A stretch of 54,104 bases of DNA from Microbacterium sp. p3-SID336. Its GTDB lineage: Bacteria > Actinomycetota > Actinomycetes > Actinomycetales > Microbacteriaceae. The translations under genes and the position numbers were made by a program. The first letter of the stretch is position 1. The number at the start of each line of letters is the position of its first letter. Shown here one piece after another: positions 900 to 24,337 of the stretch. The notes beneath the pieces were generated by a model. It had not been told where the DNA came from. It saw only the letters and a program-made list of their open reading frames with translations, and did not search any database. The stretch lies in assembly GCF_025143365.1 (NCBI RefSeq), contig NZ_JALXPE010000027.1, positions 1 to 54,104 of the forward strand, written 5' to 3'.

Positions 900-2540
900 A
901 TGTGCCAATTGAAGAGTGAAGGACCACGCTGCGCCACTCACGCCCCCGCCCTCTACCTGTATGCGGAGAACCGCTGCTCCGTATACGCCCGCATCCTTGC
1001 TGATGACTCCGTTCTCACACCTGAGGAACAGGCATCGTTCAAGGAACTCTCCGCGAAGGCAGTGTTGGATGCCAAAGAGAAGAACCGCCTGTCGGAGTTA
1101 CAACGCATCCAAGCCAACGGCTCTAAGTTGTCTGAGACTGAGAAGGACAATTACGAGAAGAACCGCGCCTCCTTCTTGAAGCTATCTCGTGACGTTGACC
1201 TGAACGCTGTAGCCGGTGGAGCGATGAGCGTTCGTCAGCTTCATGCTGCTCGTGTGGATGTGCTGCGCGCCGTGACCCGTGACCCTTCCTTCAAGTCCCG
1301 CCCTGACCACAGGCTCATCACTGAGGCATTAGCGGACATAGACAGAGACCCCGAGAACTTCGGAAAGCTCTCTCGTGACCTTGAACGCACCGCCGATGAG
1401 CTTGTGGAGAGTGGCGCAGTAGCCGACTTGAAGCCCACCGTGAAGCTCGGGAACGGTCGCATCTACCCGGTGGACGCGAACAGGTTGGAGAACTTGAAGT
1501 TTCTTGCCAACCGCTACTACGAGGTGAGGGGTCAATCTCCTGTCGCTGCTGACAAGAAGCAGCGGGACGCGTATGGGGTAGTCACTCGACTTCGTGTGAA
1601 CAACCCTGAGGCGTTCAAGACGATGTGTGACTTGGATGCCACAGAGGAAGAGATTGCCGAGCTACCTCCTGAATATGTTCAGTTGCGTACAAGCGCTCAC
1701 TTCACCAAGGTGCTTGCGCTCGCGCATCACTATGACACGAAGCAGTTCGCGTCGGGCATTATCGCTGCTGAGGCGAAGGTTCACTCTCCCACGAACTACA
1801 AGAACAACCCTGACCGTGATGTATATGACGAGTACATTGCTGCGCTACCGAGCGTCCCTCACGTAGACGGCGTTGAGTGTGGATGGGCGGACGAAACGAA
1901 GTTCGGCAGCATGCGCAAGAGACTCACTCGTGACGAAGCTCTTCTCAGAGTGGGGAAGTATGCGCAACTCATCGAAGACTACAACGGAATGTTCACCACA
2001 ACCCCACCCACCGTTGCTCTTCCAATGCCCGGTGCTCCAAAGAAGAATATGAACCCTCGTGAAGCTGAGCTACACGCTGCTGCTTCTCTCCCTCGTGGTA
2101 CATCGCCTTCAAAGAAGACCGAACCATCTCTCCGTCCTGAGCTACTAACCGGCAAGGGAGGGGTGAGTCCATCAGATGCGAAGGCTCGCGCGACTGTGAA
2201 GACCTCAACTTCCACGGATGAGCCTGTGACCACACCTAAGAGCACCGTCAGGGCGTCCATCCGTTCGGATGCTCAGAGCACTCCTGCTCCTACGGTCAAG
2301 GCTGCGCCGTCAGCGACGAAGCCCTCTCCACTGCCTTCACCTCTGCCTCTTCCTTTCCCTGACAAGCAATCGTCTGCGCCGATGAAGACAACCTCCGTGG
2401 AAGTTCCTCTCAGTGCGGTCACTTCGGTGAAGGAGAGTAAGCCTCTGCTACCTCCTGCTGACACAGCGAAGGAGAAGGTAACCGAGGGAAGCATCACTGA
2501 CTTCATAAACAAGATACTCAGACCAAAGAGAAGGCACTGA
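900..2540 (+). CDS. Hypothetical element protein with N-terminal Cys/His motif
   Basis: 546 residues; ATG preceded by CAAGGAGACC. The N-terminus (MCQLKSEGPRCATHA) carries a C-x8-C-x2-H signature that recurs in the protein at 3061. Residues about 40-380 are largely helical and charged. Residues about 390-520 are a low-complexity Pro/Ser/Thr/Lys-rich tail. No signal peptide or membrane segment is seen. It is followed by a strong hairpin at 2548-2575. The Cys/His motif might bind zinc or serve as a targeting tag; function is unknown. A DNA-processing, relaxosome-like or exported effector role is possible but not supported by any motif I recognise. Confidence 0.75.
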   Translation: MCQLKSEGPRCATHAPALYLYAENRCSVYARILADDSVLTPEEQASFKELSAKAVLDAKEKNRLSELQRIQANGSKLSETEKDNYEKNRASFLKLSRDVDLNAVAGGAMSVRQLHAARVDVLRAVTRDPSFKSRPDHRLITEALADIDRDPENFGKLSRDLERTADELVESGAVADLKPTVKLGNGRIYPVDANRLENLKFLANRYYEVRGQSPVAADKKQRDAYGVVTRLRVNNPEAFKTMCDLDATEEEIAELPPEYVQLRTSAHFTKVLALAHHYDTKQFASGIIAAEAKVHSPTNYKNNPDRDVYDEYIAALPSVPHVDGVECGWADETKFGSMRKRLTRDEALLRVGKYAQLIEDYNGMFTTTPPTVALPMPGAPKKNMNPREAELHAAASLPRGTSPSKKTEPSLRPELLTGKGGVSPSDAKARATVKTSTSTDEPVTTPKSTVRASIRSDAQSTPAPTVKAAPSATKPSPLPSPLPLPFPDKQSSAPMKTTSVEVPLSAVTSVKESKPLLPPADTAKEKVTEGSITDFINKILRPKRRH

Positions 2541-3026: not shown

Positions 3027-3060
3027 ATGCCCTCTCAATCATCAGATGAAAGGACTGTCT

Positions 3061-3552
3061 ATGTGTAGACCTCAACCCGCTCCCCGTTGCGCATCTCACG
3101 CCAAGGGTGCGATAGCGAAAGCGAAGAAGAACGGTGACGTTGAAGCTCTGACTGCTGCGCAACGCGCCTACGAACTCACGCCTGAGTTCAGGAAGCAACT
3201 GAGTCAAAAAGTTGAAGAGTTGCGTGCTGACCTTGTGCGTGGTGTATCCGATGGAAAAGGACATCAGGAGCTGCTTGATGAGCTTGCTGCTGCGGAGCTA
3301 CTACTTGCTCGCCGTTCTCGCGAGTACAACAGGCGCATCAAAGCTTGGAAGAAGAGTCGCTGTGTTCTTGCTGCTGACACCTCAGCCAACTACCCCACCA
3401 TCACGAAGCTCGTGGAAGACGAGAGAGAGCCTGTGGAGGCTCGTCGCATCGGGATAGAGAACCTTCGCACTCGTGGTGGACTCTACGGCTCATTTGAGTC
3501 GCGTGAACTGTCCGCGATGTTCGGGGTTCCTCTGTTGAAGGAGTCCGCATGA
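3061..3552 (+). CDS. Hypothetical protein with MCxxxxxxPRCAxHA N-terminus
   Basis: 163 residues from the ATG at 3061, chosen because AAAGGA lies 7 bases upstream and because the product then begins MCRPQPAPRCASHA, matching the N-terminus of the 900-2540 protein. The ATG at 3046 is an alternative. The rest is helical, charged and soluble, rich in Lys, Arg and Glu. It is the first gene of a three-gene operon: its stop overlaps the next start (ATGA), and that gene in turn overlaps the DNA pump gene. Role unknown; the coupling suggests it acts with the pump. Confidence 0.7.
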   Translation: MCRPQPAPRCASHAKGAIAKAKKNGDVEALTAAQRAYELTPEFRKQLSQKVEELRADLVRGVSDGKGHQELLDELAAAELLLARRSREYNRRIKAWKKSRCVLAADTSANYPTITKLVEDEREPVEARRIGIENLRTRGGLYGSFESRELSAMFGVPLLKESA

Positions 3553-4136
3553 ACCCGAACGAGTTTGAGATGCGTGTGCGTTCTTCTGTCTACCGAGCGA
3601 GCGCTGCTGTTGCTGTGCTTCCCGCAGTCAATCCACCCAACCCACCACAACCGGCTGACTTCATCAATGCCTACTTCAAGCACATAGGAGAACCCGCCCC
3701 TGCGATGACAGACGGAGTGAGAGAAGGGTTCCTTCACGCCGGTAGTCAAGTACAGATGCTCTTCGTGGCAATCAACCACACGCAGTGGTGCCTCTGTGCC
3801 GATTGGTTGAACAGGGAGTTCTCTTCTCAAATCACCGCCTCAGCAAGCATCCGTTGCTTCACCGACAGGGTTACCGCAGCGAACGAACCGTTCCGTCAAA
3901 GGATAGGGAGAACTGACTACCTCGTGTTGGTGTCCACTCCCTACGGAGCGAAGAACACAGTGAAGAACCATGTGAGCGACATATGGCGGGTAAACGTGAA
4001 CGTGCTGAACGCTCAACCGTCAGCATCATCTTCACCGCAACCAACGAAGTTCAACCTTCACACCCCGGACAGGTTCAAGAACCTTCCACCCCGACCACAA
4101 CCATTTACCCCAATCAACCGAAAGGACACACCATGA
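3549..4136 (+). CDS. Hypothetical protein, middle gene of FtsK operon
   Basis: 195 residues. The start overlaps the upstream stop as ATGA, and its own stop overlaps the start of the FtsK-like gene the same way, so all three are translationally coupled. Residues about 1-145 look like a compact globular domain with three cysteines (WCLCADW and IRCF). The last 45 residues are Pro/Gln/Ser-rich and probably disordered. No signal peptide. Family not recognised; position suggests an accessory or adaptor of the DNA pump. Confidence 0.65.
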   Translation: MNPNEFEMRVRSSVYRASAAVAVLPAVNPPNPPQPADFINAYFKHIGEPAPAMTDGVREGFLHAGSQVQMLFVAINHTQWCLCADWLNREFSSQITASASIRCFTDRVTAANEPFRQRIGRTDYLVLVSTPYGAKNTVKNHVSDIWRVNVNVLNAQPSASSSPQPTKFNLHTPDRFKNLPPRPQPFTPINRKDTP

Positions 4137-5962
4137 AAAAGAAAGAAGAAGAGTTACCCCGCATCAACCGTTGGGAACTGTTAACCAACAAGCAAGACCC
4201 GTGGGAAGACCTCTACGAGTTGTACACTCGTCCGCGAGTGGAGCAGCCCTCTCCGGTAGCTGAGCTCTTACACTCAATACTGCGCGGGGTCGGCATCTTT
4301 GGTGTAATCGCGGGGATAATCATACTATTCTTCGCACCGTTCGCCGGAATCACACTCATAGCCGTAGCGAGCGGGGTCTACTTCGCTCAGGTCTTCCTTG
4401 TGATACTTGACTTTGCGTTCCTGTTCGTCATCTCTCGTTATCCCCTTCAAGTTCACGTTGCGGGGTTGGCAGTTTCGTTCGGAGTGTTCGTAGCGAGCTT
4501 AATCTTCAAGCTTGGAAACACAACCACGGCATTTGCCTTCTTCTCTGCCGCCTACTTCTTGGCGGTGTCAGTAGTTGTAGGTCTCTACATCGGCATTCGT
4601 CGCTTTCTAAATCCACCCGTGATGGAGGAAGTGACAACCAAGAAAGACACGAGAACCAAGTTCGAGGTCAAGGTTGATGAGCAACTCCCCTCCACCCTTG
4701 TCAACTACTACTCACCAACTACCGAGTATCCGGTAGACAGGCTTGTAGAACGAGACTTCGCGAGCAAGGAAGATTTCAAGGTTGCGCAAAGAGAGGCAAA
4801 GGAGGAAAACCATCTTGAACGCGTCCGTGACGCCAACCGCTACATTGACCATGCCCGGGAGATAGAAGACGGCGTGGTCGAAGTTCTGTTGCTCACCAAA
4901 GAGGGAACTTCAGCGGACAAGCTCATCAGCAACATATCCATCATCAACAACGACTTAGGCGCTTTCGGGGTGAACGTCGTTGCTAACCCCGACCGTCCAT
5001 CCAACCAAGTTCTCATTCACATCAACATGAAGAGACAGAAAACTGAGATGGAGAAACTGATTGAAGCTCGTCCCAACGCTGCGATGTACGCGAATCACTC
5101 ACGCGAGAACCTCTTCCGTCTTCCAATCGGCGTTGACGCTTCGGGTACGACTATCTACCTTGACCTCTCACACACGTTGATTGCGGGCGTGAGCCGTTCC
5201 GGAAAGGGTTCTCCAATTCAAAGAATCCTTGAGTACTACGCACCCCTTGTGAAGGAAGGCAAGGTTCGTCTGTGGGGTATCGACCCCAAGAATGCGGAGT
5301 TCAAAGATTTTCGCAACACCACCCTGTTCTACCGTCTCGCGATTTACTCCAACGAGCAAGGAGCGCTACTCGATGAGTTCCACTCCGAGATGAAGCGTAA
5401 ACAAGAAATCTCCGGGCGTCATGGAGAGGTGTCTACCGAGACCCCCATTGACATCCTCATCGTCGATGAGATTGTGGCGTTGATGAACAACAAGACTGTG
5501 ATGAAGAGTGAGGGATACACAGGAGAGTCGCGTCAGCTTCTTTGGGACGAGATTCTTACCCAAGGTGCTTCTGACTTCTCCTTCATCGTTGCCGCGACTC
5601 AGATAGTGGTTGCGAGTGTCTTGGGTGATACTCGTGTTAACTACATCAACCGAATCGCGCTTCGTCTTGCTTCCGCAAGTCATGTTGACATCGTTCTCGG
5701 AGATGGTGCCGTTCGTGACGAAGGTGCGCTTGCTAACAAGATTCCACGCGCAACAGTCGGAAACGGCTACTTCTCGTCCGGTATCGCTAACGTGGTTGGC
5801 GACGATGGGCTTCATCTCATCAGGTTCGCATACACAAGCGACGAGGATATTGAGAGGCTGATAGAGGCGTTCCCTCTACCCGAGGGCACTCCCCCTGTGG
5901 ACGTAGGTGAAGACAGAACGGCTGAGATTGATGCCTTCCTCTCTTCCTTCGCTGAAGACTGA
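4133..5962 (+). CDS. FtsK/TraB-like membrane DNA translocase
   Basis: 609 residues from the ATG at 4133, preceded by GAAAGGA and overlapping the upstream stop (an in-frame start at 3983 lies inside the previous gene). Residues about 45-160 contain four to five hydrophobic segments. The ATPase domain has a Walker A GVSRSGKGS (352-360, Lys358) and a Walker B IDILIVDE (Asp445, Glu446). GKGS instead of GKS/GKT is, from memory, common in FtsK-like pumps of actinobacterial plasmids and AICEs. Known: such TraB/FtsK proteins move double-stranded DNA between mycelial or Gram-positive cells without a type IV secretion system. Inferred: this is the conjugative pump of the element. No gamma domain typical of chromosomal FtsK is seen. 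Confidence 0.85.
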   Translation: MKKKEEELPRINRWELLTNKQDPWEDLYELYTRPRVEQPSPVAELLHSILRGVGIFGVIAGIIILFFAPFAGITLIAVASGVYFAQVFLVILDFAFLFVISRYPLQVHVAGLAVSFGVFVASLIFKLGNTTTAFAFFSAAYFLAVSVVVGLYIGIRRFLNPPVMEEVTTKKDTRTKFEVKVDEQLPSTLVNYYSPTTEYPVDRLVERDFASKEDFKVAQREAKEENHLERVRDANRYIDHAREIEDGVVEVLLLTKEGTSADKLISNISIINNDLGAFGVNVVANPDRPSNQVLIHINMKRQKTEMEKLIEARPNAAMYANHSRENLFRLPIGVDASGTTIYLDLSHTLIAGVSRSGKGSPIQRILEYYAPLVKEGKVRLWGIDPKNAEFKDFRNTTLFYRLAIYSNEQGALLDEFHSEMKRKQEISGRHGEVSTETPIDILIVDEIVALMNNKTVMKSEGYTGESRQLLWDEILTQGASDFSFIVAATQIVVASVLGDTRVNYINRIALRLASASHVDIVLGDGAVRDEGALANKIPRATVGNGYFSSGIANVVGDDGLHLIRFAYTSDEDIERLIEAFPLPEGTPPVDVGEDRTAEIDAFLSSFAED

Positions 5963-6365: not shown

Positions 6366-6731
6366 ATGACTATCAAGAAGAGCCTCACAGTCCTCAGCCT
6401 CATCGTGGCTGCGAGCATCACACTCACCGCGTGTAGTGGCACCGCAGAACCCACACCCAAGCCGAGCGTGACCGCACCCGCAACCACCGAACCCACACCT
6501 GTTGAGACCCCTGACGAGGGTGAGCAGATCAGCGGCGTGGAGGACAAGGCAGTCGACATTGACCTTGCGGAGGGTCAGACCACCGTTGAATACGAAGGTC
6601 AGACCTACGAATGTGAGAGCGGTGCTATCGCTGTTCGTATCAAGACCACGCCAAGCGGAACCATCCACGAGTGTGTTCTTCCCGTTGATGACGAGATCGG
6701 TGGGCTGATTGAAGAGCATGTAGGCGAGTAA
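6366..6731 (+). CDS. Small lipoprotein
   Basis: 121 residues; ATG with AAAGGAGA upstream. A signal peptide with a lipobox (LTAC, Cys23) directs lipidation and anchoring to the outer face of the membrane. It is followed by a Pro/Thr/Glu linker (residues about 25-55) and a small acidic domain with two cysteines (YECES and IHECVL) that could form a disulphide. The secreted-protein gene follows after 15 bases, so the pair is probably one operon. Function unknown; surface exclusion or attachment are possibilities for an element-encoded lipoprotein. Confidence 0.75.
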   Translation: MTIKKSLTVLSLIVAASITLTACSGTAEPTPKPSVTAPATTEPTPVETPDEGEQISGVEDKAVDIDLAEGQTTVEYEGQTYECESGAIAVRIKTTPSGTIHECVLPVDDEIGGLIEEHVGE

Positions 6732-6746
6732 GGGTTTGACCGTTGT

Positions 6747-8141
6747 ATGAACCGATTACTCAACTACATACTTGGAGGCTTCCTCGTCCTAACAGGCGCA
6801 GCCCTATCACTCACGCTCAGTGAGACATCCGCTCATGCGGTGAACTGTGGCGCTGCTGAATGCTACGCCGACTCCACCGTTCGCGGTGAAAGCAATTGGG
6901 AGGACACAGCATCCTCCGGTGGCTCAGGTTCCACGGGTGGCGGGGGCGGAGGTCACTCTTCCTCAGACTTCGTGATGACCGTCCGAACCTGCGACTCGTG
7001 GCTTCCTGTTGGTGGAGGGCAAAGCACCGGCACCTACCCTGCTGAGAACTCCAACCGCTACAACTGCTCGTTCGCTGATGGTGGCGCATACACAGGCTCA
7101 GGCGGCGAGATATGGTTCAGCTGTGCTCCACGCTCTGACCGTGCCTCAAACGGTCGTGTGACGGTCTTCTACCAAGACCCGAACACCGGTAGACGAACCT
7201 ACGCGTGGTACTACTGCCTGTACCCCACCGACGCATACGCTCCGATTGAACGCCTACAAGGTTCCGGAAAGATCTACACAGGCGGTCAAGGCTCCTTCTT
7301 CCTCACAGGAACAAGCCCCAACGCGTCACAGGTGCGAACCTATAACGGTGGAGGCAACCTCTCCAACACCTCCGGTTACATCAGCCGAAACGTGAACCTC
7401 GCAAATCCTGAGGCGTACACCGGGGCATGGCAACCATCCTTCACCGGGCGAACTTCCACGAAATCCAACGGAGACCCTGACTACGGGTTCTACCGTTTGG
7501 ATTGGCGTTTGGACTACCGAATCTGTGAGAAGTGGGCTTATCCATCTTGGTTGGGTGTTCCCGCCCGCTACGACTGTTCTCGCACCGGAGTGGACACTTC
7601 CGCGACTCCATACACCTACGCATGTAACTTCAACCCACCACTTGTTGAAGGCGTCCGTTCAGATGGACTGTTCATCCCGAGCGCGTGTGAACCACGTTGG
7701 GTATGTGACATCAGTGGTGACACCACCGTTGGTGGTCAGCCTGATGCTCTCACAGTGATGCGTAACGGTGAGCAGCTTCCTGTTCGCTTCCCAAGCGTAG
7801 GAGTGTCAGGAACGAACGTTCGCAACGCTACTGATTGGCGCTACTTCAACGCTCCCCTGCGGGATGTGTCACCAACCCTGAACTACGTGGAGTCCTCGTG
7901 GGCTTGGAGCACGTGGGATAGCTACCGTCAGGATGGAACGATTGCGTTCCGTTGGGCAAGTGTGAAAACAGGGCAAGGCTTTGAGTGGAACACTCGCTTC
8001 CGCTTCACAGCGCAGTTCTACCTACCTACACAGACCGTGGTGGGTGGTTCGCCTACCTACCGTTGGGTGACGGGCACGGCTGAGTGTCCTCAGACTGTTG
8101 ATAGTCCGAAAGTGGAGGTGGTGCGTGCTGTGAACAGATGA
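6747..8141 (+). CDS. Large secreted protein with Gly-rich linker
   Basis: 464 residues. A signal peptide with a hydrophobic core (LGGFLVLTGAALSLTL) and an AHA cleavage site at about residue 31 is followed by a linker with GSGSTGGGGGGHSSS near residues 57-71. The rest is a Tyr/Trp/Asn/Gly-rich region with about a dozen cysteines, probably disulphide-bonded. No membrane segment follows and no sorting signal is seen, so it is probably released or bound to the surface. Ribosome site is weak. Composition resembles surface adhesins or filamentous-phage attachment proteins only in general style; no family is recognised. Confidence 0.75.
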   Translation: MNRLLNYILGGFLVLTGAALSLTLSETSAHAVNCGAAECYADSTVRGESNWEDTASSGGSGSTGGGGGGHSSSDFVMTVRTCDSWLPVGGGQSTGTYPAENSNRYNCSFADGGAYTGSGGEIWFSCAPRSDRASNGRVTVFYQDPNTGRRTYAWYYCLYPTDAYAPIERLQGSGKIYTGGQGSFFLTGTSPNASQVRTYNGGGNLSNTSGYISRNVNLANPEAYTGAWQPSFTGRTSTKSNGDPDYGFYRLDWRLDYRICEKWAYPSWLGVPARYDCSRTGVDTSATPYTYACNFNPPLVEGVRSDGLFIPSACEPRWVCDISGDTTVGGQPDALTVMRNGEQLPVRFPSVGVSGTNVRNATDWRYFNAPLRDVSPTLNYVESSWAWSTWDSYRQDGTIAFRWASVKTGQGFEWNTRFRFTAQFYLPTQTVVGGSPTYRWVTGTAECPQTVDSPKVEVVRAVNR

Positions 8142-8302: not shown

Positions 8303-8830
8303 ATGAGCGAGATCACTGACCAAACACCTGAGATGAAAGCAGTGATGCTTCATACGAAGAAGACCACGCGTGCGTTCTTGAAGCAGCGTCATCCTGAGTT
8401 GGGGTCTCGTGCTTCCATCGGAAAGATCGACTACGGCTTAGAGAAGAAGCAGCGTGCCGAGTTTGATCCTGAAACGGCTGATGATGACTACAAGCACTTG
8501 ATGTCAGTGTTCCCATACATCTCACGTTCTATGACTCGCTTGGCGGTTGAGAACCCGGATGTCTACAACGAAGAACTCGTTGAGGATCTCGTTGAGATGT
8601 ACAACGCTGACCCCGCTATCCCTTCAACTGTGCTCGCTTTCGCCTCTCCGTTCAATGAGGACGGCAATCTGTTGGTCACTTTTGTGTTCGCGGACATCCC
8701 GCTTCGTGACGAACGTGCTGCTGCGGGTGAGTACACCACGCTTGAGGATGTCGTGGAACCGATAGAGCTTCTACCTCCACGTCCTGTCTCCAAGGTCAAC
8801 CCAATGAATCTGCTTCGTTCAGCGGAGTGA
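8303..8830 (+). CDS. Hypothetical protein, 175 residues
   Basis: ATG at 8303 has a strong AAGGAGG 6 bases upstream; the longer frame from 8228 would start inside the upstream hairpin. The product is soluble and acidic, with no signal peptide or membrane segment. The C-terminus is Pro-rich (LLPPRPVSKVNP). It is a single-gene unit between the motif at 8260 and the hairpin at 8837. No family recognised. Confidence 0.7.
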   Translation: MSEITDQTPEMKAVMLHTKKTTRAFLKQRHPELGSRASIGKIDYGLEKKQRAEFDPETADDDYKHLMSVFPYISRSMTRLAVENPDVYNEELVEDLVEMYNADPAIPSTVLAFASPFNEDGNLLVTFVFADIPLRDERAAAGEYTTLEDVVEPIELLPPRPVSKVNPMNLLRSAE

Positions 8831-9009: not shown

Positions 9010-10476
9010 ATGACACCCTCAACCACCACGCTCAACGAGCAACACTTAGCTGATGCGGCATTCGACGCTCGTGGTGCCACAACTGAGCATCAACGAAATC
9101 GCGCTCGTCTATACCGAGACCACATCACGTTCAACCGAATCTCTTCAACCGCAAGCGGTAGGAACTGTTTCCGTTCTCGTCGTGGAGGCTCCAACGGAAC
9201 TGCACTACTTAGGACACACACATCCAAAGGCATCTTCTCAAAGTGGGCGCGTCAGTCTTGTAAGAGTGCTCTCTGCCCCATCTGCTCCACACAACGCGCG
9301 AAGCAGGATGCTGCTGAACTTACAGTTGCGACTCGTGCTCACGTGGCTCGTGGTGGCACAGCCCTGTTCCTCACGTTGTCCGCGCGTAGTGTCTATTCGC
9401 GAACTCCACAGTTTGACAACGCCGAGTACCACTTCCGCAACGACGCAGAAGCCCTTACGGCGTTCAGAGAGTCAGAGAAGAACTACTCTCCTGTCGGAAG
9501 GTCAGAGAGGCTCAGAGCACGGGTAGCTGCTTACGCAGAAGAACATGCCGTGAAGGTTCACACTCACACGGATTGGGAGCTTACTCATCGCCATGACGTG
9601 TTCAAGAGTGTGGCATCTCGTAGCGTCTTTGGTGGAGCACAGTGGAGCAAGGACGCAAAGCGTTACGGTGTGCGTGCCCGCGTCATCGTGACTGAGTTGG
9701 TGCCTACTCCCGCGAAAGCCAAGTCATCCGCACCCAACAAGCGCGGCGTGGATTGGAACTATGTGACCCACAACCTTCACCTTCATATCGTTCTCTTCCT
9801 TGACCCTCTTCCTACGGAAGAGGGTTCCACTCGTCGTCTGAACGCTTCGGAGCGTGACGAGCTCGTGAACCGTCTATACGGTCGTTGGGAACGCGCTCTC
9901 AAGAAGCACGGAATCACCGCGAAGAAGGAAGCACAGGATTTCTCTTGGATAGCCGCTGATGAGATTGAGAAGGTTGCTCACTACATCAACAAGCTTCCTC
10001 GTGAACTCATCACCGGGAAGTCAGCGGGTAAGGAAGGGCACATGTCGATATGGGATGCGTTACGTGCTGCTGAAGGCGGTCACATCACTGAGTCAGGTGA
10101 ACTACTTGAAGCTGACCCCGCTGCTCGTAATTGGTTCCGTCAGGTTGAGCAACTCTTCTACCGCAAGAAGCTCATCATGTTCTCCACCAACTTCGCTGAG
10201 CGAATGGGTGTTGCTGATGAGTTGAAGGCTCGCCGTGAAGAGTTCTTCAGCACCGCACTGACGGAGACCGTGCTGTTGTTCGGTGAGGGCACGTGGAGGT
10301 GGATGTGTGAAGAGAACCCCGAGTTCCGATACGAACTTCTCAACATGGCTGAGAACACCACAGGCGAGAACTTGAAAGCCTTCATCAGAGAACACGGTTA
10401 CCCGTTCATCGAGCCGTCAACACCAACCTTGGATGAGGTTGAAGATGACGACTTTTGGAACATGGAACCGTTCTGA
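9010..10476 (+). CDS. HUH rolling-circle replication initiator
   Basis: 488 residues; ATG preceded by GAAGGAGACC. A zinc-finger-like motif CKSALCPIC is at residues 84-92. The metal-binding HUH motif is HLH at 257-259 within NLHLHIVLFL. The candidate catalytic tyrosine is Tyr325 in VAHYINKLP. Length and motif order match the Rep (RepSA-type) proteins of actinobacterial plasmids and AICEs. Known: such proteins nick the double-strand origin and stay covalently linked to the 5' end. Inferred: it replicates the excised element and may also serve mobilisation. It stands alone between the control region at 8898 and the hairpin at 10495. Confidence 0.85.
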   Translation: MTPSTTTLNEQHLADAAFDARGATTEHQRNRARLYRDHITFNRISSTASGRNCFRSRRGGSNGTALLRTHTSKGIFSKWARQSCKSALCPICSTQRAKQDAAELTVATRAHVARGGTALFLTLSARSVYSRTPQFDNAEYHFRNDAEALTAFRESEKNYSPVGRSERLRARVAAYAEEHAVKVHTHTDWELTHRHDVFKSVASRSVFGGAQWSKDAKRYGVRARVIVTELVPTPAKAKSSAPNKRGVDWNYVTHNLHLHIVLFLDPLPTEEGSTRRLNASERDELVNRLYGRWERALKKHGITAKKEAQDFSWIAADEIEKVAHYINKLPRELITGKSAGKEGHMSIWDALRAAEGGHITESGELLEADPAARNWFRQVEQLFYRKKLIMFSTNFAERMGVADELKARREEFFSTALTETVLLFGEGTWRWMCEENPEFRYELLNMAENTTGENLKAFIREHGYPFIEPSTPTLDEVEDDDFWNMEPF

Positions 10477-10590: not shown

Positions 10591-10611
10591 AGATCTACCG
10601 ATATTAGAAGG
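10591..10611 (+). promoter_or_regulatory. Element promoter motif before pilin gene
   Basis: AGATCTACCGATATTAGAAG (10591-10610) combines the AGATCT and GATAT...AGAAGG parts of the other copies. TCCGCATTTTCTG is immediately upstream. Start codon at 10640. Confidence 0.55.
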
Positions 10612-10639: not shown

Positions 10640-11608
10640 ATGATTCAAAAGCTTAGAGAGTTACAAGCGCAAGCATCGGAAGAAGGCTTCACCCTCATCG
10701 AACTGATGATCACAGTCGTCATCATCGGAATCCTCGCAGCGATAGCGATCCCCATCTTCACCGGGCAACAGAAGGCAGCCATAGACGCAGGAGTGAAGAG
10801 CGACGTGAAGAACATGGCTGACGTAACCATACCCACCAAGCTCTCCGCGAACGGCAACAACCTTGCTGCTCAAGTCGCTCCCTTAGTTGGCTCCGTGGAT
10901 GGTCAAACCCTCACCGCACAACAAGCCAAGTATCAAGACATCAGCCTCTCAGACGAGAACACCAAAATCACCATCGGTGGTGGGTGGTCTGACTTCACTG
11001 TTCTTGCCACCAACGAGAGTAGTGAATCCGTATGGTGTTCATCTATCAAAGATGGAGCAAGACGCCTTCACTCCGGTGAGGACTGTAAGGGCATCCCCGG
11101 TTACACCGAATGGACAGATGAACTTGGTAACCCCGGCGAAGGCGGCGGCTCATTAGCTGAAGGTTGTGAAGCGTTCGGCGGACTACAACCGGAAGAGGTT
11201 GCTCTACAACACGGATGGTACGGCTCATACGAGGCTGACCACTACGTAGACAATATTGACGAAGGTTGGTTACGCACACCTCAGCAGAAGGCTGACTGTC
11301 GCGCTCGCTACTCAGCAGCCGAAGCAGCTGATATTGGCGCAAAAGAACGTGCTGCGGCTCGTGAGGTTGTTCTTCAAATGGTGAAAGACAACATCGCAGC
11401 AAACAACAGAACCGACCGCACCGAGTGGAGTGGAAGCACTACCTACTTAAATATTGAAGGTAGCTACAATTACAACTACGGAGCGGTCGACGTTGATGGT
11501 GCTGACTTCAGCGCAGAAGCATCAGTGACTTCCAAAGATCCACGTATCGGAATCCAAGAGAACTTCACTTGCTACGGAAGTTCAATCGCAACCGCTACCT
11601 GTTTCTAA
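10640..11608 (+). CDS. Type IV prepilin-like protein
   Basis: 322 residues; ATG with GAAAGGA upstream. A class III leader of 16 residues ends in Gly16, followed by FTLIELMITVVIIGILAAIA: the prepilin peptidase site (G16/F17), Glu21 as mature residue 5, and the hydrophobic assembly helix. The remaining 280 residues form a large head with several cysteines (CSS, DCKG, EGCE, FTCYG, ATCF). No prepilin peptidase or pilus ATPase is present in the window, so assembly would depend on host or distant element genes. Such a gene on an AICE-like element is unusual and may serve cell-cell contact or DNA transfer; a pseudopilin is the other option. Confidence 0.85.
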   Translation: MIQKLRELQAQASEEGFTLIELMITVVIIGILAAIAIPIFTGQQKAAIDAGVKSDVKNMADVTIPTKLSANGNNLAAQVAPLVGSVDGQTLTAQQAKYQDISLSDENTKITIGGGWSDFTVLATNESSESVWCSSIKDGARRLHSGEDCKGIPGYTEWTDELGNPGEGGGSLAEGCEAFGGLQPEEVALQHGWYGSYEADHYVDNIDEGWLRTPQQKADCRARYSAAEAADIGAKERAAAREVVLQMVKDNIAANNRTDRTEWSGSTTYLNIEGSYNYNYGAVDVDGADFSAEASVTSKDPRIGIQENFTCYGSSIATATCF

Positions 11609-11619
11609 ACGCTCCGACT

Positions 11620-11654
11620 GAGACCCCCTCTGACTTGTTCAACGAGGGGGTCTC
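11620..11654 (+). terminator. Hairpin terminator after pilin
   Basis: 11-bp perfect stem GAGACCCCCTC / GAGGGGGTCTC, 13-base loop, 11 bases after the pilin stop. Confidence 0.8.
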
Positions 11655-11669
11655 ATCATGTTTCGTGTC

Positions 11670-11690
11670 AGATCTTCCGATATTAGAGAT
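11670..11690 (+). promoter_or_regulatory. Element promoter motif, hybrid form
   Basis: CCGATATTAGAGATG joins the CCGATAT core of one motif variant to the TTAGAGATG of the other, indicating that both variants are the same element. AGATCTT precedes it. Start codon at 11706. Confidence 0.55.
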
Positions 11691-11705
11691 GAACAAGGAG
11701 AACCC

Positions 11706-12170
11706 ATGAAACGAAAAACACTCACACTCACTGCGATAGGTGCTTCCGCCCTCATCCTTGCGGGAGCAATCGCTGTTCCTTCTCTCGCAGCAACCACCAC
11801 ATCCAACGCCACCGCTCCACCCGCTATGAACCAAGCAGCGGTCAGTAGAACCGCTGTCGTGGCTGCTGCTGTTGCGGGAACGAAAACAATCACTTCATGT
11901 ATTGCCTCAAAGCCCGTGGACACCTACGCGAACGTCGTTCTGACTGAGGATGTGGAAGATTGCCGCTCTCGTGCCGGATGGAAGGACAGCTATACAGACG
12001 GCTACCTCTCCCAAGCGTTCGGCAACAACACCAAGGCTCCCGTAGACCCCTACAACTTCGGACGCCCCATACCACCATCCACATACTGCGTAGAGGTCAC
12101 CTATTTTGGTAGCGAAGACCTTCCCCGCTACCCGGTCATCTGTAACGGTGTGCTCTACACCACGTACTGA
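11706..12170 (+). CDS. Secreted hypothetical protein
   Basis: 154 residues from the ATG at 11706 (CAAGGAGA upstream). A signal peptide with basic start (MKRKT) and hydrophobic core ends near SLA-A at residues 28-29. An Ala/Thr-rich stretch and a domain with four cysteines (TSCIAS, EDCRS, TYCVEV, VICNG) follow, suggesting two disulphides. It is a single-gene unit directly behind the pilin gene. Function unknown; the neighbourhood suggests it acts outside the cell with the pilin. Confidence 0.7.
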   Translation: MKRKTLTLTAIGASALILAGAIAVPSLAATTTSNATAPPAMNQAAVSRTAVVAAAVAGTKTITSCIASKPVDTYANVVLTEDVEDCRSRAGWKDSYTDGYLSQAFGNNTKAPVDPYNFGRPIPPSTYCVEVTYFGSEDLPRYPVICNGVLYTTY

Positions 12171-12215: not shown

Positions 12216-13010
12216 TCACGCAGCGAGGTCAACCATGCGCCACGTCTGAACGTCACAAGGGAACAGGAGCAGCCCATCGAACTGCCACTCGTCAAGCGAT
12301 GGACTGACACAGGCAATTGGCACTTGAACACAGTGGTCAGTGTCAGAGTTCGGGCTGAGGGTAAACGCTGCTGCTTCACCCGGTGCCTCATCCTCAGGGA
12401 GGAAACCCAACACGGCATGTTCGTTGGCGTGAGCGTTTCGGACATTCTCAATCTCGGTCGCTATCCCACTCATCTCTGCTCTGAAGATGTCACTCAGTGC
12501 GATAACAACTTCGTAGTACTCATCGTCGTAGTCGTATGCGATGCGTGCGGCTGTCTCGTTGATGAAGGCTTCGAACTGTTCACGGTGTTCTCGGGTGGGC
12601 ACACTGATGATGAGCGTCTTGGTTCGAACAGGACGGTACTCAGTTCTGTGAACCTCGACTAATCCACCGTCGTCAGACATCACCGCGTGGGTGTTGTAGC
12701 CGTTGCTTGGTGGACGTGTGTCCACAATCGGGAATAAGGTGTAGAACTCAACACTGCTGTCCTCACCGAATGAGTAGATCGCATGGATGGGGTAGTCCCT
12801 CACATCGTCTTCTACGCGGTGGGTGGATGGGGTGATGCCGTGGTTGGCACACCAAAGCTGATAGTTGCGGATGAGGGGTTCAAGGGAGAGATCGCGGATC
12901 ATCCCGGCGTAGGCACTGTGGTCATCTTCTTTGGGGTGGAGGTGGTCTGTGGTGAGTCGTTCGTAGAGCGTGGGTTCGTCGTTGTCAAAGTTCAGTATGT
13001 CTGCGTTCAT
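12216..13010 (-). CDS. Hypothetical protein, 264 residues
   Basis: Start placed at the ATG at 13010 with GAAAGG 7-8 bases upstream; a GTG at 13037 would lie within the promoter motif. The product is soluble and acidic, beginning MNADILNFDNDEPTLYERL. No signal peptide, membrane segment or known motif is seen. It is the only gene in this part of the element on the minus strand, with its own copy of the element promoter motif. Function unknown. Confidence 0.65.
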   Translation of the reverse strand: MNADILNFDNDEPTLYERLTTDHLHPKEDDHSAYAGMIRDLSLEPLIRNYQLWCANHGITPSTHRVEDDVRDYPIHAIYSFGEDSSVEFYTLFPIVDTRPPSNGYNTHAVMSDDGGLVEVHRTEYRPVRTKTLIISVPTREHREQFEAFINETAARIAYDYDDEYYEVVIALSDIFRAEMSGIATEIENVRNAHANEHAVLGFLPEDEAPGEAAAFTLSPNSDTDHCVQVPIACVSPSLDEWQFDGLLLFPCDVQTWRMVDLAA

Positions 13011-13036
13011 GTTGGGTGCCTTTCGTAAGATGTCCA

Positions 13037-13055
13037 CCTTCTATATCGGTAAGAA
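13037..13055 (-). promoter_or_regulatory. Element promoter motif, minus strand
   Basis: Read on the minus strand this is TTCTTACCGATATAGAAGG, matching the copies at 6024 and 8260 in all but two bases. It points toward the minus-strand gene starting at 13010, showing that the motif is directional and travels with starts. Confidence 0.6.
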
Positions 13056-13671: not shown

Positions 13672-16473
13672 TTAGCGCCTCTGACGCTTCTTCGGAGCAG
13701 CCGCAAGCAGCCCTGCCGTGACGCTCTCGTAGAGATTGAACAGCGTCTCCAAGATTCCGACCTCACTCGTGTTGGTACGCAGCCCATAGGCGTTGAGAAC
13801 AGCCTTGTCGAGATCTGCGTGTGCCTTCCGGAGGACGGTTGGCATCACTGCGCGGTTGTAGAGAGTCGCGAGTGTGGAGTCCGGGAACTGAGCACGTGCT
13901 TCCAACACCTTCTCTGCTGCGACCGTCACAGCCTTCTTACGAGCATCATCCGTGTAGACCGGGAAGGGGAAGTTGTTGTAGGTGATCTCAGAAGAGATGC
14001 GCGGGTCTTCCTTCAACCGTCCCGACACCGCTTTGTTCCAAACGCTGAAGACCTTGCTGCTCATCACACCGAAGGTCTCAGTGCTTGCCCCGATAACGCA
14101 TGAGAGCGCATCGTTCGGCACGAAGTCGGGGGTCAGGAACTCAAACGGCGTATAGTCCCGGTCGTGAGATGAGTGCCGGGGAACCCCAAGGAAGTCGACG
14201 GTGGGCTGACGGTTAATCTGCTGCCACTCCCACGCCCGGTCGGCATCCTTCTGAGTGGCGAGCTTCGTTGATGCCGCACGGAACGCCCGCACAGCCTCAA
14301 CGCGCTCCTTCAGCACCGGGCTGTTGAGCAGGTCGTTAGGGTCAACCCCCACCATCCACAGCCCCCACCGCTCAATGCCGTTGATGAGTTCCTCGCTGCC
14401 GACAACTCGCCTCAGGTACTTCGCCGCAATGGGGTCATTCGCCCGGATGCGCGCAGCGTCCTCAGCGCTGATCTTGGAGAGCAGGTTGTTGTCCACCGGC
14501 TTATTGCCGTTGGTCATGGGAGGGCTGTCCGCACGAAGGGGCTTGCTCCTGCTGCGGATGAGAAGGTTTGGGGCGTCCAACAGGTAGGCATTGATGTTGT
14601 CCACCGCGACAAGCTCAGGGTCGCTGTTCACGGTTTCGTATGACCACAGCGACCGCTTCCCCTTCTTCGGGGTGTCTCCATGCCAACTGATGCCGACGAT
14701 CACCACATAGACGCTTGCTTCCTTACCGCCCGCGTTCCTCCACCGGAAGGTGCGGTGAGCGAAGTCGATAGCGGCACCCAACTGATAGAGAACGTTCCAA
14801 ATCACTGCGGGCTGCTGCCCCTGAGTGATGCTATTGGTGGAAACGAACGCCGCTACAGCCTTGGTTCCTTCGATGTGTCGTGCCGCCACGAGATACCACG
14901 ACGCGACGTAGTCGAGGATGCCGGAACCGCTGAGTCCCTTCCACACCAACGCAACGTCTTGCTTCTGCTCCGCGTTCAGGTTCGTTGAACCGTAGAACGG
15001 AGGGTTGCCCATGATGATCGTGTTGTCGTCCATCGGGCAGACCTCAGCCCAATCCAAACGGAGAGCGTTGCCCCTCACGATCTTGGCGGATTCCTTCAGC
15101 GGGAAACGGTTGGGAGATGACCCCAACACCTCATCCATTGCGAGGTTCGCTTGCCTGTCAGCGAGATACATCGCCACGGTTGCGATCTGTGAAGACCACT
15201 CTTCATACTCAATGCCGTGGAACTGTGTGAGCTTCACCACCACGCCCACATTGTCTGCGTTCGCAATCTCCAACCCGACCTGTCCCTGAGTTCCCTCAAG
15301 CTCTTGAAGACGAGCAAGGATCTTCAACTCAATGTCGCGGAGACGCTTGTAGGCAACGATGAGGAAGTTACCGGAGCCACACGCGGGGTCAATGTAGTTC
15401 CTCTCCCCAAGCGACTTACGAAGCTCCCTCAACCCCTTAACGTCATCCCACACCTTGCGCAGCCGATCCAAGTAGTCATCAAGGAAAAGCGGACGGATGA
15501 GCTTCAGGATGTTCTGCTCCGAGGTGTAGTGCTCTCCAAGCGCCCGTCGTTCTTCTTTGCTCTTGACGGTTTGGAACATCGCACCGAAAACAGCAGGGCT
15601 GATGCCCGACCAATCGTAGTGACAGGCTTTCAGAAGCGCTTCCCGCATCTCGGGGGTGAACTTGAAGAACGGGAGATCGTCCTTGTTGTCATACAGCCCG
15701 CCATTCACGTAAGGGAAGGCGGCGAGCAGCGGATCCGTGTGGGGCGGTCGTTCTTCGTGAGCGAGGACGTAGAAGAGTTCCTGTAACCGGCTACCGACAT
15801 CGGATCCGTCAGGGCGGGTGGCTTCAACGATCTCCTGAAAGCGTCCCTTCTTCTTCCACATGTAGGTGTCGTCACCAAAGAGAAGGAAGAGGACACGGAC
15901 GAGGAAGACTGAGACGTGATGACCGGTGTACCCGGCTTTCTCAAACGTCTCAAACAGGTCGCCCATCAGAACTGCCGCGTCCCTGTCAGCGACAATCTCG
16001 TTGATGGTGGCGTTCTTGTCGTACTCCCCGAAAACGGCTTCTACCCGGTGGAGGTTCGCCGGAAGCTCGTCAAGTGCGAACTCTGACGTGGTGCCTTGGA
16101 ACACGTCGATGATGCGGATGGTTGCGAAGTCGCTGATGATGAGGAACGGAGCACGGTCGTGAGACGGGAGGGAGACAAGGTAGTCACGCGCTTGCTTCTC
16201 GGCAGCGTCAAGGCTCTTCCCGGCGCTCTTGTGCTCGATGAGAACGATGCCGCTCCACAGCACGTCAATGAACTGAATGGTGTTCGTGGTGCTGCTTCGG
16301 ACGGGGTACTCGAACTCCACCCCGGCTGCGAGTAGGTCTTCAACTCCGACGACGTATCGGAGGAAGTCGCTCCAAAAGGACTGCGCGTACTGCTTCTCAC
16401 GCTTGATCTTGCTCCACTTGGAAGCGAAGTCTTTCGCTGCTTTTCGACGCGCGGTTACGTCCTTGATCGCCAT
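13672..16473 (-). CDS. MmeI-like fused restriction endonuclease-methyltransferase
   Basis: 933 residues from the ATG at 16473. The N-terminal nuclease has a PD-(D/E)xK centre of spacing D-x9-E-x-K (Asp70, Glu80, Lys82, in FIDVLWSGIVLIEHK). The methyltransferase has motif I DPACGSGNF and motif IV NPPF, at about residues 360 and 488, which indicates an amino-methyltransferase (N6-adenine type). A long C-terminal half would hold target recognition. Known: MmeI-family (type IIL) enzymes combine cutting, methylation and recognition in one chain of about 920 residues with the same active-site spacing. It ends a four-gene minus-strand operon. Inferred: restriction of invading DNA. Recognition sequence cannot be read. 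Confidence 0.85.
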   Translation of the reverse strand: MAIKDVTARRKAAKDFASKWSKIKREKQYAQSFWSDFLRYVVGVEDLLAAGVEFEYPVRSSTTNTIQFIDVLWSGIVLIEHKSAGKSLDAAEKQARDYLVSLPSHDRAPFLIISDFATIRIIDVFQGTTSEFALDELPANLHRVEAVFGEYDKNATINEIVADRDAAVLMGDLFETFEKAGYTGHHVSVFLVRVLFLLFGDDTYMWKKKGRFQEIVEATRPDGSDVGSRLQELFYVLAHEERPPHTDPLLAAFPYVNGGLYDNKDDLPFFKFTPEMREALLKACHYDWSGISPAVFGAMFQTVKSKEERRALGEHYTSEQNILKLIRPLFLDDYLDRLRKVWDDVKGLRELRKSLGERNYIDPACGSGNFLIVAYKRLRDIELKILARLQELEGTQGQVGLEIANADNVGVVVKLTQFHGIEYEEWSSQIATVAMYLADRQANLAMDEVLGSSPNRFPLKESAKIVRGNALRLDWAEVCPMDDNTIIMGNPPFYGSTNLNAEQKQDVALVWKGLSGSGILDYVASWYLVAARHIEGTKAVAAFVSTNSITQGQQPAVIWNVLYQLGAAIDFAHRTFRWRNAGGKEASVYVVIVGISWHGDTPKKGKRSLWSYETVNSDPELVAVDNINAYLLDAPNLLIRSRSKPLRADSPPMTNGNKPVDNNLLSKISAEDAARIRANDPIAAKYLRRVVGSEELINGIERWGLWMVGVDPNDLLNSPVLKERVEAVRAFRAASTKLATQKDADRAWEWQQINRQPTVDFLGVPRHSSHDRDYTPFEFLTPDFVPNDALSCVIGASTETFGVMSSKVFSVWNKAVSGRLKEDPRISSEITYNNFPFPVYTDDARKKAVTVAAEKVLEARAQFPDSTLATLYNRAVMPTVLRKAHADLDKAVLNAYGLRTNTSEVGILETLFNLYESVTAGLLAAAPKKRQRR

Positions 16474-16510
16474 GACCACACCCTATCGGCTGCGGAGGCG
16501 GTCACCGTCG

Positions 16511-17140
16511 TCAGTAGTCCGCTTGCTCCCTAAGTGTTGGCACGTGGGAGTAGACGCCGTCGATCTCATCCTCAAGGAGGGCAAGGTTGGTGTAGCCGGT
16601 ATCCAACCAATCAGCGAGCGCCGGGAAGTCCGCGGACTCCTGAACGTTCGGAAGGTTCCCGGCATACCTGAACCCCACCCCGCCTGCGTCATCCTCGTGG
16701 AACGCAAGCACAAACTTCTCCATCTCAGGAGGGAAGGGTCGACCTTCACTCAGTACCTCGTAGTGAACCTTCGTCTCAGCGAGTAGCCGGTCAAGCTTGT
16801 GCCCGAACTTCTTCCTCAGCCATTCGGCGCTTGCTGCGTCCCTCAACGCGGGTGTGACTCCGTCGACGTAGTTCATACGGATGCTCGCGAAGTATTGGAT
16901 ATGGCTCTTGAGCCTTAGCTCCACTGCCTGACGGTAGAGGTAGAGGAAGGGCAGCAGCATGGTGTCGTCTTCAGGCTTGCCGCTGAATGTTGAGGCAAGG
17001 CGCTTCGCTGATTCTTCGTAGAAAAAGGCGAAGTCTCCCGCGTCTTTGTGTGCGTATCGGACGATGAGGTTGCGGTAGGTGGTTGCCGGGGCGTTCCCCA
17101 TCACAGCCGTTGACTTAGGCGTGGGCTTAGGATTCTTCAT
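16511..17140 (-). CDS. HEPN-like hypothetical protein
   Basis: 209 residues from the ATG at 17140 (GGTGGAGAG upstream), overlapping the previous gene's 3' end by 14 bases. FLYLYRQAVELRLKSHI near residues 60-80, FGHKLDRLLAE and a later FRYAG are features I associate with HEPN-type helical proteins of defence loci. No canonical Rx4-6H catalytic motif is obvious, so it may be a non-catalytic partner. Cytoplasmic, no membrane segment. Being between the ApeA-like gene and the restriction enzyme gene suggests a role in the same system. Confidence 0.55.
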   Translation of the reverse strand: MKNPKPTPKSTAVMGNAPATTYRNLIVRYAHKDAGDFAFFYEESAKRLASTFSGKPEDDTMLLPFLYLYRQAVELRLKSHIQYFASIRMNYVDGVTPALRDAASAEWLRKKFGHKLDRLLAETKVHYEVLSEGRPFPPEMEKFVLAFHEDDAGGVGFRYAGNLPNVQESADFPALADWLDTGYTNLALLEDEIDGVYSHVPTLREQADY

Positions 17141-18542
17141 TCGGCTCTCCACCTTCGGTCGACACGATGTTCCCTCGCGAGTCAAAAGCTAAGCGATAGT
17201 GCTTCGCACGGTTCTCAAGGTCTCTCATTGCTCCGACCTCACGATACTGAGTGAGAAGAGAACCACTCTCGTCAAGAAGATGAAGAGTCATCAACCTCAC
17301 GATCATCTGCGCAATACCACTAACGAGGTGGGAAACTGCCGCGTCGGGGTACTCTCCATCGTTGAAGTGCTTGATGGAGTTGTATGTTCGCGCGACACCT
17401 CGGGCGATCCCTGCGTTGTCGCCAATTTCGCCCCATGAGACACCGACAACATCGAGGCAACGATAGACCTGTGTAGCCGTGATGGGGCGGTTGCGCTCGT
17501 AAGTATCTTCCTCGCCGGGTCTCTCCCCGATCATCTTGCCCGCTGCTTCAAGGCTCATGGACATCGAGATGATGGTGTCTTCCATGAACGAGTTGGTGCG
17601 TCCGAAGTCTCCTACCGCAGGGAGTATGAACTTCTTCCAAGGCTCGTACTGTTCGTTCCACCGAACCATTCCCGCTTCGCCAACGTCGCTGAAGCGGGTG
17701 AGCATGCCGTCCAATGCTCTCTTGTTCGGTCTCGGTTGCGCGTAGTCCTGAACCGTGTGACTACTGATCGCCTCAACCTTCGGGTGCCCGAGCACGGTTG
17801 CTCCCATCGATCTCAGCACGATCTGCTCATCGCCCACATGATGCTGACGGAAGTGAATGGGACTTCCGGCTATGAGGGTCAGAAGGTGAACAACCTTCCG
17901 TTGCTCGTTGATGTGATCATTCAGGGGGCGCGGTTCCGGGAACTTGGATACGAGCACGGGTTGCGTAGAGATGTTCAAACCACTGTGAGGGTCGATATCG
18001 GGAGCCGCTGTGCGCCAATCACTCATGAGGCTCATCGTTGCCTCACCCTGTTGCCACGTGGACTCAACCCCGGTTGTGACTCGCACGACGAGATCTGCCG
18101 TCCCGTCTTCGCCAATCTCCCGGTCGGATGTGATGCCGTACAGCTGAGTCCACTGACGAAGCCCGTCAACTGCGCTACGAGCCTCAGCAACTTTGAACGG
18201 CTCGCTAAGAGAGCCTTCGTATCGTCCCAATAGGGTCTCTGACGGGGTGAGCTGTCCCAAAGAGACTCCGCTTCTCACTGAGTGCCCCCGCCACCGAATC
18301 CCGTAGAGACCGATCATGCCGTCAGGTGTGTGAAGGATGAGGTTTTGAGGGGGCGTCTGCGTCCGAAACCACTCGTCCACGTGTGCGAACTGCCCGGTCT
18401 CGTCGTGGGAGATGAAGGGAACGTCGACCACCGGACCCCGGTCTTCCATTCGCAACGTTGCGCCTGTGTAGGGGGTGCCGTCCACGCCGTCGATGAGCAA
18501 GCCGACATACGACTGACCGGGCGTAAGAGAGGTGATAGCCAT
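17127..18542 (-). CDS. ApeA-like HEPN abortive-infection protein
   Basis: 471 residues, ATG at 18542. The N-terminal half is beta-rich with the pattern I associate with the ApeA N-terminal domain (GATLRMED..., LLGRYEGSLSEPFKVAEARSAVDGLRQW). The C-terminal half is helical and holds an R-x6-H motif (Arg385 to His392, ARTYNSIKHF), the HEPN ribonuclease signature. Known: ApeA proteins give phage defence through a HEPN RNase. Inferred: an RNA-targeting abortive-infection effector in this operon. Its stop overlaps the next gene; the upstream gene ends 21 bases before its start. Assignment is from pattern recognition only. Confidence 0.6.
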   Translation of the reverse strand: MAITSLTPGQSYVGLLIDGVDGTPYTGATLRMEDRGPVVDVPFISHDETGQFAHVDEWFRTQTPPQNLILHTPDGMIGLYGIRWRGHSVRSGVSLGQLTPSETLLGRYEGSLSEPFKVAEARSAVDGLRQWTQLYGITSDREIGEDGTADLVVRVTTGVESTWQQGEATMSLMSDWRTAAPDIDPHSGLNISTQPVLVSKFPEPRPLNDHINEQRKVVHLLTLIAGSPIHFRQHHVGDEQIVLRSMGATVLGHPKVEAISSHTVQDYAQPRPNKRALDGMLTRFSDVGEAGMVRWNEQYEPWKKFILPAVGDFGRTNSFMEDTIISMSMSLEAAGKMIGERPGEEDTYERNRPITATQVYRCLDVVGVSWGEIGDNAGIARGVARTYNSIKHFNDGEYPDAAVSHLVSGIAQMIVRLMTLHLLDESGSLLTQYREVGAMRDLENRAKHYRLAFDSRGNIVSTEGGEPNEES

Positions 18543-21314: not shown

Positions 21315-21434
21315 GGTATCTCCTTCTCCTGATGGGAAGCACACTACGAGGAACCGCCGACATTCCTTCACCGAGTTTCTTTTAGTTCAATGTCCGAACT
21401 TCGAGCGATACTGTACGCAACGAAGGGAGTAACC

Positions 21435-22512: not shown

Positions 22513-22552
22513 GGAGAAGACCCCTGTTGCCTACGCTACGGGGGTCTTCTCC
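22513..22552. terminator. Shared terminator of convergent recombinases
   Basis: 12-bp stem GGAGAAGACCCC / GGGGTCTTCTCC with a 16-base loop, followed by TTTT on the plus strand. It overlaps the last codons of the minus-strand integrase. Confidence 0.8.
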
Positions 22553-24243: not shown

Positions 24244-24249
24244 CTAACG

Positions 24250-24337
24250 CGGTGACGGTGGGATTTGAACCCACGGTAGGGGGTTACCCTACACAACTTT
24301 TCGAGAGTTGCACCTTCGGCCGCTCGGACACGTCACC
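24250..24337 (-). tRNA. tRNA-Ser (anticodon CGA)
   Basis: 88 bases on the minus strand. The acceptor stem GGTGACG pairs with CGTCACC and the discriminator is G, as expected for serine. The anticodon stem CAACT/AGTTG encloses the loop CTCGAAA, giving CGA. A long variable arm (GTAGGGTAACCCCCTAC region) and the T-loop GGTTCAAATCC are present. CCA is not encoded. It is the integration site; its 3' part should be the attachment core. The 5' side continues into high-GC chromosome. Confidence 0.95.

Follow-up and report, generated by a model that had tools for sequence, protein, structure and literature searches.

The type IV prepilin gene considered here is built into a family of AICE-like elements with a conserved core, in which it is optional. 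It lies within the first half of the window, by which we mean the whole 54,104-nucleotide stretch of Microbacterium sp. p3-SID336 DNA that was analysed, and pilins were found in two of the four elements that carry the core (the window element and that of Agrococcus sediminis, but not those of genomes G209 and G352). The reading that we tentatively place first is that the gene encodes an accessory surface-display pilin of the element, serving cell contact in transfer.

The original prediction had placed the pilin inside an element with Rep, FtsK and an integrase, and this was borne out by a low-GC region integrated at a tRNA-Ser gene and carrying two tyrosine recombinases. Measured over 2-kb intervals, GC content is 0.52-0.58 as far as about 24 kb and 0.66-0.76 past 25 kb, and the low-GC part, about 24.2 kb, stops at the 3' end of tRNA-Ser(CGA). 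In the nearest of 396 genomes searched (G297), 83% DNA similarity extends over 6 kb and starts exactly at 24249, the tRNA 3' end. The left end of the element lies beyond the window, and the element is described from position 1 to about 24.2 kb, with the following features (the upstream motif is treated further below):

900..2540 (+), element protein with no assigned function; motif at 847 upstream
3046..3552 (+), element protein with no assigned function and a weakly similar one in Agrococcus, first gene ahead of the 3549 gene and FtsK; motif at 2957-2968 upstream
4133..5962 (+), FtsK/SpoIIIE DNA pump; start picked by inspection, longest open reading frame from 3983
6366..6731 (+), core gene for a lipoprotein with a lipobox (LTAC) assigned by inspection; motif at 6326
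6747..8141 (+), 464-residue secreted protein, cysteine-rich and beta-rich; core gene
8303..8830 (+), element protein of 175 residues, preceded by the motif at 8265
9010..10476 (+), rolling-circle Rep (Rep_1 match under its cut-off), preceded by the motif at 8935-8946
10592..10603 (+), GATCTACCGATA, agreeing exactly with the upstream motif; the CCGATA within it stands 42 bp ahead of the pilin start
10640..11608 (+), type IV prepilin of 322 residues, recognised from its leader, its helix and family models
11671..11682 (+), GATCTTCCGATA, copy of the motif ahead of the 11706 gene
11706..12170 (+), 154-residue secreted protein adjoining the pilin
12216..13037 (-), element protein with no assigned function, preceded at 12 bp by the motif on the minus strand
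13672..16479 (-), MmeI-type IIG restriction-modification gene, with a single CCGATA 10 bp ahead of it
17127..18542 (-), ApeA-like defence gene, cargo
21390..22502 (+), tyrosine recombinase Int1 (Phage_integrase match); core gene
22531..24105 (-), tyrosine recombinase Int2 (Phage_integrase match), adjoining the tRNA
24249..24337 (-), tRNA-Ser (CGA), attachment site; the element ends at the tRNA 3' end

The FtsK_SpoIIIE family (PF01580) was matched at 24.8 bits (cut-off 24), and the window Rep matched Rep_1 at 24.8 bits, under the cut-off of 33.2, with no NCBIfam match up to E 0.1. The element resembles AICEs of the pSAM2 type (AICE criteria as given in parts of PMC3218068) in its tRNA integration, its tyrosine integrase at the att end, its single FtsK/SpoIIIE pump and its Rep, and the AICE feature of an integrase beside one att site, here the tRNA, is present. 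AICE Rep proteins are of the RepSA, RepAM or Prim-Pol type in the relevant part of PMC3218068, where flanking att repeats and transfer as double-stranded DNA are also AICE features; such repeats, of 15 bp, were found in the Agrococcus relative described below. The present Rep is only weakly Rep_1-like, and this family adds a conserved lipoprotein, the 464-residue secreted protein, a second recombinase and pilins. In parts of the same source FtsK-pump conjugation in actinobacteria seems to require one transfer protein, and within its main text the word 'pilus' occurs once, for the T4SS in Gram-negatives, and 'pili' never (PMC3218068). No T4SS families were detected among the 20 window element proteins scanned and, as the original prediction had stated of the window, neither a peptidase nor a pilus ATPase was found among them; a pattern scan of the whole window gave no second prepilin and no PilB-type Walker motif. 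At 13612-13659, between convergent genes, lies a nearly perfect inverted repeat (21 bp, with a loop of 6 bp) that is perhaps a terminator, and the host part of the window contains tandem-like 21-bp and 18-bp repeats at 30631-30903 and 33843-34048.

The predicted prepilin hallmarks are all present in the 10640 gene, in which the leader MIQKLRELQAQASEEG/FTLIE supplies Gly16, Phe17 and Glu21 and is followed by a long hydrophobic helix and a long head, with matches above cut-off to Pfam N_methyl PF07963 (29.2 bits against 21.2) and NCBIfam TIGR02532 (30.0 bits against 16.3). A profile built from the alignment of the window pilin also matched type IV pilins in the PDB. The protein divides into the leader (residues 1-16), a pilin module to about residue 150, a Gly-rich linker (GNPGEGGGS) and an extra head of about 150 residues with a cysteine pair at its C-terminal end; the N-terminus is major-pilin-like and the head is large. 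Among 120 proteins listed from the protein database, five are full-length relatives at 74-99% identity; all six cysteines are retained in each of the five, and 119 to 167 of the last 169 residues are identical in them, so that the head is regarded as a maintained domain. The remaining 115 listed proteins cover 15-53% of the query, the aligned portion being the N-terminal pilin part in those that were aligned. Pfam PF02018 is present in three of the relatives listed and PF05345 in one, and the pilin-linker-head build is shared by the window pilin, two Agrococcus pilins and some database relatives. The predicted structure is poor (pLDDT 49.3), and a pilin fold of the head is putative.

The neighbouring 11706 product, predicted to be secreted, does have a signal-peptide-like start, although signal peptides and lipoboxes were here assigned by eye. 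Three relatives of it were found in the database, and one at 90% shares a longest-contig figure of 48409 with an 84% pilin relative; the two are thus probably on one contig, which suggests that pilin and 11706 gene may travel together. A pilin relative (P0089) and a relative of the 464-residue protein (P0146) likewise share a figure of 30718. The 464-residue protein has 35 protein-database matches, one of them the window's own, and its AlphaFold model (pLDDT 81) is beta-rich, with most of the first ~75 residues at low confidence; the only matches obtained for it were weak Ig-like ones.

Among 398 genomes of the family to which Agrococcus sediminis (G001) belongs, which we take to be the Microbacteriaceae, three have a gene for the 464-residue protein. 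In all three (G001, G352 and G209) the gene occurs together with relatives of Rep, FtsK, Int1, Int2 and MmeI, the Rep proteins sharing 24-26% identity with that of the window. The lipoprotein gene was found by similarity in Agrococcus and G209, while G352 has, beside its 464-residue gene, a 135-residue gene with a lipoprotein-like start by inspection only; with that assignment, the core including the 464-residue protein and the lipoprotein is present in four of four elements, the window counted. The Agrococcus element (554571-615414, 60.8 kb) is bounded by 15-bp att repeats, one of which sits at the 3' end of tRNA-Ser(GCT). The MmeI-type IIG gene is as constant as the core genes, being present in all four elements at 58-73% pairwise identity, and of the 44 Agrococcus element proteins nine matched the leucine-rich repeat variant (LRV) family, while a NikA-like match was seen in one.

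Within the Agrococcus element, inside the 15-bp att repeats, there are five prepilin-like genes:

581910-582752, prepilin-like gene, 280 residues
611738-612610, prepilin-like gene with acidic repeats in the head
612802-613194, prepilin-like gene
613294-613821, prepilin-like gene with a weaker leader, GFGLPE
613966-614436, prepilin-like gene

N_methyl was matched at E <= 0.01 by 5 of the 44 element proteins, and the whole genome has four matches at E <= 0.001, all of them within the element; TSP3_bac was matched by one of the 44. The first and last of the five genes are 40-44% identical to the window pilin over 129 residues. Pilin homologues are not confined to isolated chromosomal positions, as the Agrococcus element has them together with both Rep and FtsK, and the combination of pilin, 464-residue protein, lipoprotein, FtsK and Rep proposed for other Microbacteriaceae recurs there in full; in G209 and G352 it recurs short of the pilin, G209 having zero N_methyl matches in its genome and G352 a single one on a contig other than that of the element. 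The conjugation apparatus that had been envisaged from these proteins is only partly supported: the 464-residue protein and a lipoprotein occur in all four elements, but the pilin does not appear to be an obligatory transfer part, since none was found in two of the four. A pilin also occurs on a 15.5-kb low-GC island of G008 that lies between 16-bp repeats, one of them at the 3' end of tRNA-Tyr. The island also encodes an integrase resembling Int2 and a relative of ApeA; matches to Rep, FtsK and the 464-residue protein were not found on this island.

Matches to the pilin were found in 187 of the 398 genomes of the family, with at most five candidates scored per genome, and outside G001 pilus ATPases of the PilB/PilT type were present within the 15-20 kb read at 24 of 26 pilin loci (10 of 11 and 14 of 15), the two ATPase-less loci being in G221, at a contig end, and in G008. 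In the larger of two trees, with 99 rows, 36 pilins of other genomes are parted by a starred branch (97/92) from four island pilins (those of the window and G008 and two from Agrococcus), with most database pilins on the island side. This tree includes 59 of the 120 listed database proteins (P0002-P0059 minus P0016, plus P0069 and P0089) and leaves out loci without the strict leader pattern, among them three of the five Agrococcus prepilin-like genes and the G297 pilins; of its 36 rows labelled chromosomal, 20 had their context read, an ATPase being present at 19 of them and the remaining one lying at a contig end, and 16 carry the label without context. A context-checked tree gave the same division, a starred branch (99/96) parting 25 ATPase-locus pilins, G297 included, from five island rows (the window, three from Agrococcus, and G008), and this split was recovered in 100% of 200 bootstrap trees and in 0 of 500 shuffles. 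G008 had already fallen outside the chromosomal group in an earlier tree, before its island context was read. The island pilins are not a single clade among themselves in either tree, and the Agrococcus row 612802 sits on a very long branch in the context-checked one.

Genomes with type IV pili (T4P) have PilB-like PF00437 matches of 457-466 bits, and G001 reaches 238 bits at best, in a gene that by inspection lies within a Tad cluster. The Agrococcus genome gave no T4P-type PilB or PilM match, Tad-type ATPases only, its completeness not being given, so that absence is not proof; the same applies to PF11104 (PilM), which was unmatched in G001, G209 and G352 and matched once each in G297, G042 and G315. 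G001 has one A24 peptidase, short and by inspection of the CpaA kind. None of the PF00437 and PF01478 matches of the Agrococcus genome falls inside the element, and neither family was among the best 25 of 30 families for the 44 element proteins. A classical pilus in the Agrococcus host is accordingly doubtful, there being no T4P-type PilB or PilM match despite five prepilin-like genes. Seven genomes near the window's host were checked for full PilB, and three have it (G297, G042 and G387); the two genomes closest to that host have both full PilB and a PilM match.

The upstream motif CCGATA was traced from repeats found in the window, in whose full length GATCTNCCGATA, with two mismatches allowed, has 19 matches against 8.64 expected (0 of 100 shuffles as high). 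CCGATA has 18 sites in the 24.2 kb of the window that belong to the element and 3 in the 29.8 kb that belong to the host. The 60.8-kb Agrococcus element has 38 and 19.2 kb of its flank none, and CCGATAT is among the top enriched heptamers of the Agrococcus element (18 against 1.8). With gene starts taken from simple ORF calls, co-oriented sites no more than 150 bp before a start numbered 9 of 18 (window), 19 of 38, 7 of 15 and 10 of 20 in the four elements, against strand-flipped counts of 1, 3, 0 and 1 (shift P 0.0008-0.0034); about half of the sites are not ahead of any same-strand start. Window genes with the motif ahead of them include those for the pilin, Rep, the lipoprotein and the 11706 product, though also MmeI (10 bp), and in Agrococcus it precedes FtsK, Rep, the lipoprotein, the 464-residue gene and four of the five prepilin-like genes. 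There was no CCGATA before the G008 pilin. The MmeI genes of Agrococcus, G352 and G209 and the ApeA genes of Agrococcus and the window likewise have, among the sites listed, none on their own strand in the 150 bp ahead of them. Because the upstream motif is common to the pilin, Rep and other core genes, and recurs in four elements, the pilin is wired into the element; the motif, a candidate promoter or operator, may possibly mark the regulon of an element-encoded regulator. It resembles the -10 box of the flagellar WhiG/FliA promoter, in which a -35 TAAA stands ahead of a -10 GCCGATAA (part of PMC8325347), but an identity with that promoter was rejected on the -35 box: with one mismatch allowed, none of 45 sites has TAAA at offset -20, two have it at -21 and three at -19, and exact TAAA is found at no offset from -34 to -11.

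Elements of the TP114 and PAPI-1 type use a T4SS, and where a conjugative type IVb pilus is present (R64, TP114, PAPI-1) the element encodes an ATPase, a platform protein and a peptidase with the pilin. Element-encoded T4P mediate mating contact in TP114 (IncI2) and PAPI-1 (parts of PMC9045228 and PMC5297154); in the same portions of these sources, exchangeable C-terminal heads of the TP114 minor pilin PilV select recipients (PMC9045228) and PAPI-1 has a ten-gene pilus cluster (PMC5297154). The likeness here is that of a mobile element with its own type IV pilins; in contrast, pilins only were found, the pump is of the FtsK type, the host is Gram-positive, and the left end of the window element is outside the window. 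The chromosomal T4P of the Microbacteriaceae share the prepilin leader, helix and major-pilin module, but their pilins stand beside PilB/PilT-type genes and on the other side of the tree. The orphan pilin VC0502 of the Vibrio island VSP-II resembles the window pilin as a lone type IV pilin on a genomic island, though host and island are unrelated to those of the window; deleted with other pilins, it was dispensable for the cell congregation studied (part of PMC8248653).

Cell contact for transfer is our first choice because the pilin-linker-variable-head build recalls the PilV adhesins of conjugative T4P. The pilin would be made together with the replication and transfer genes, its hydrophobic helix holding it in the membrane with the variable head outside; it might be polymerised in hosts that possess type IV pilus machinery, and could help donor cells to keep hold of recipients during DNA transport by the FtsK pump. 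More likely as obligatory transfer partners are the lipoprotein and the 464-residue protein. Counted in favour of an accessory display pilin are the Agrococcus core with five prepilin-like genes, the shared motif, the tree split and the TP114/PAPI-1 precedent; counted against it are the pilin-less elements, the lack of a T4P-type PilB or PilM match in Agrococcus, the G008 island without core or motif, the CCGATA of MmeI, the half of sites off-start, the island pilins not forming one clade, and the poor model. The broader proposition that a T4SS-free, FtsK-type family uses its own pilins, with exchangeable heads and an element motif, as mating-contact adhesins, displayed from a membrane anchor with no classical pilus in hosts without T4P, is conceivable but unlikely. 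We know of no clear mechanism for contact of non-mycelial cells in FtsK-pump conjugation; pilins inside FtsK-pump elements offer a concrete, deletable candidate for it, the 464-residue protein and lipoprotein, constant in four divergent elements, a second, and the shared CCGATA motif a handle on the regulon and regulator of the element.

Ranking close behind cell contact is cargo adhesion, in which the pilin would serve adhesion to surfaces, biofilm or nutrients, to the advantage of the bacterium and not of DNA transfer. This is a real but less probable possibility, consistent with a pilin in just two of four elements and on the G008 island, where Rep and FtsK were not found, with relatives bearing PF02018 heads, and with MmeI and ApeA as other cargo, the window MmeI likewise having CCGATA just upstream. 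However, in two elements that have diverged from each other the pilin has the same motif ahead of it as Rep, the lipoprotein and genes on the FtsK side, and same-strand sites are missing before the other MmeI genes and both ApeA genes considered above. It is improbable that the element pilin enters or caps a host T4P, altering phage adsorption or DNA uptake and so excluding competitors: a major-pilin-like N-terminus with a large head, full PilB in three of the seven genomes checked close to that of the window's host and defence genes on the element would suit such a role, but no T4P to hijack was found in the Agrococcus host. An obligatory mating apparatus of pilin, lipoprotein and 464-residue protein would account for the presence of all three in the window and Agrococcus, and for the one pair of pilin and 464-residue relatives with a common longest-contig figure (30718), and is nevertheless a little less probable again given the two other core-bearing elements in which no pilin was found. 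That a chromosomal pilin gene was picked up by accident and does nothing for the element is already disfavoured and the least probable, for although pilins are common in the family (187 of 398 genomes), the tree separates the window pilin from T4P-linked pilins, five full-length relatives keep all six cysteines, the pilin has its own motif copy, and a second element has five prepilin-like genes.

Parts of the gene complement also occur in other settings. ApeA-like defence genes were seen in the window (17127-18542), in the Agrococcus element (L006:4684-6075) and on the G008 island (2774227-2775828). Int1-like recombinases at E <= 1e-20 occur in 5 of the 398 genomes of the family of G001, and G227 has a weak Int1 match only. 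Matches to Rep, FtsK and the 464-residue protein were absent from the 40 kb read in G315, where a small low-GC island on contig C68 (~46000-56000) carries an Int1 relative (46%).
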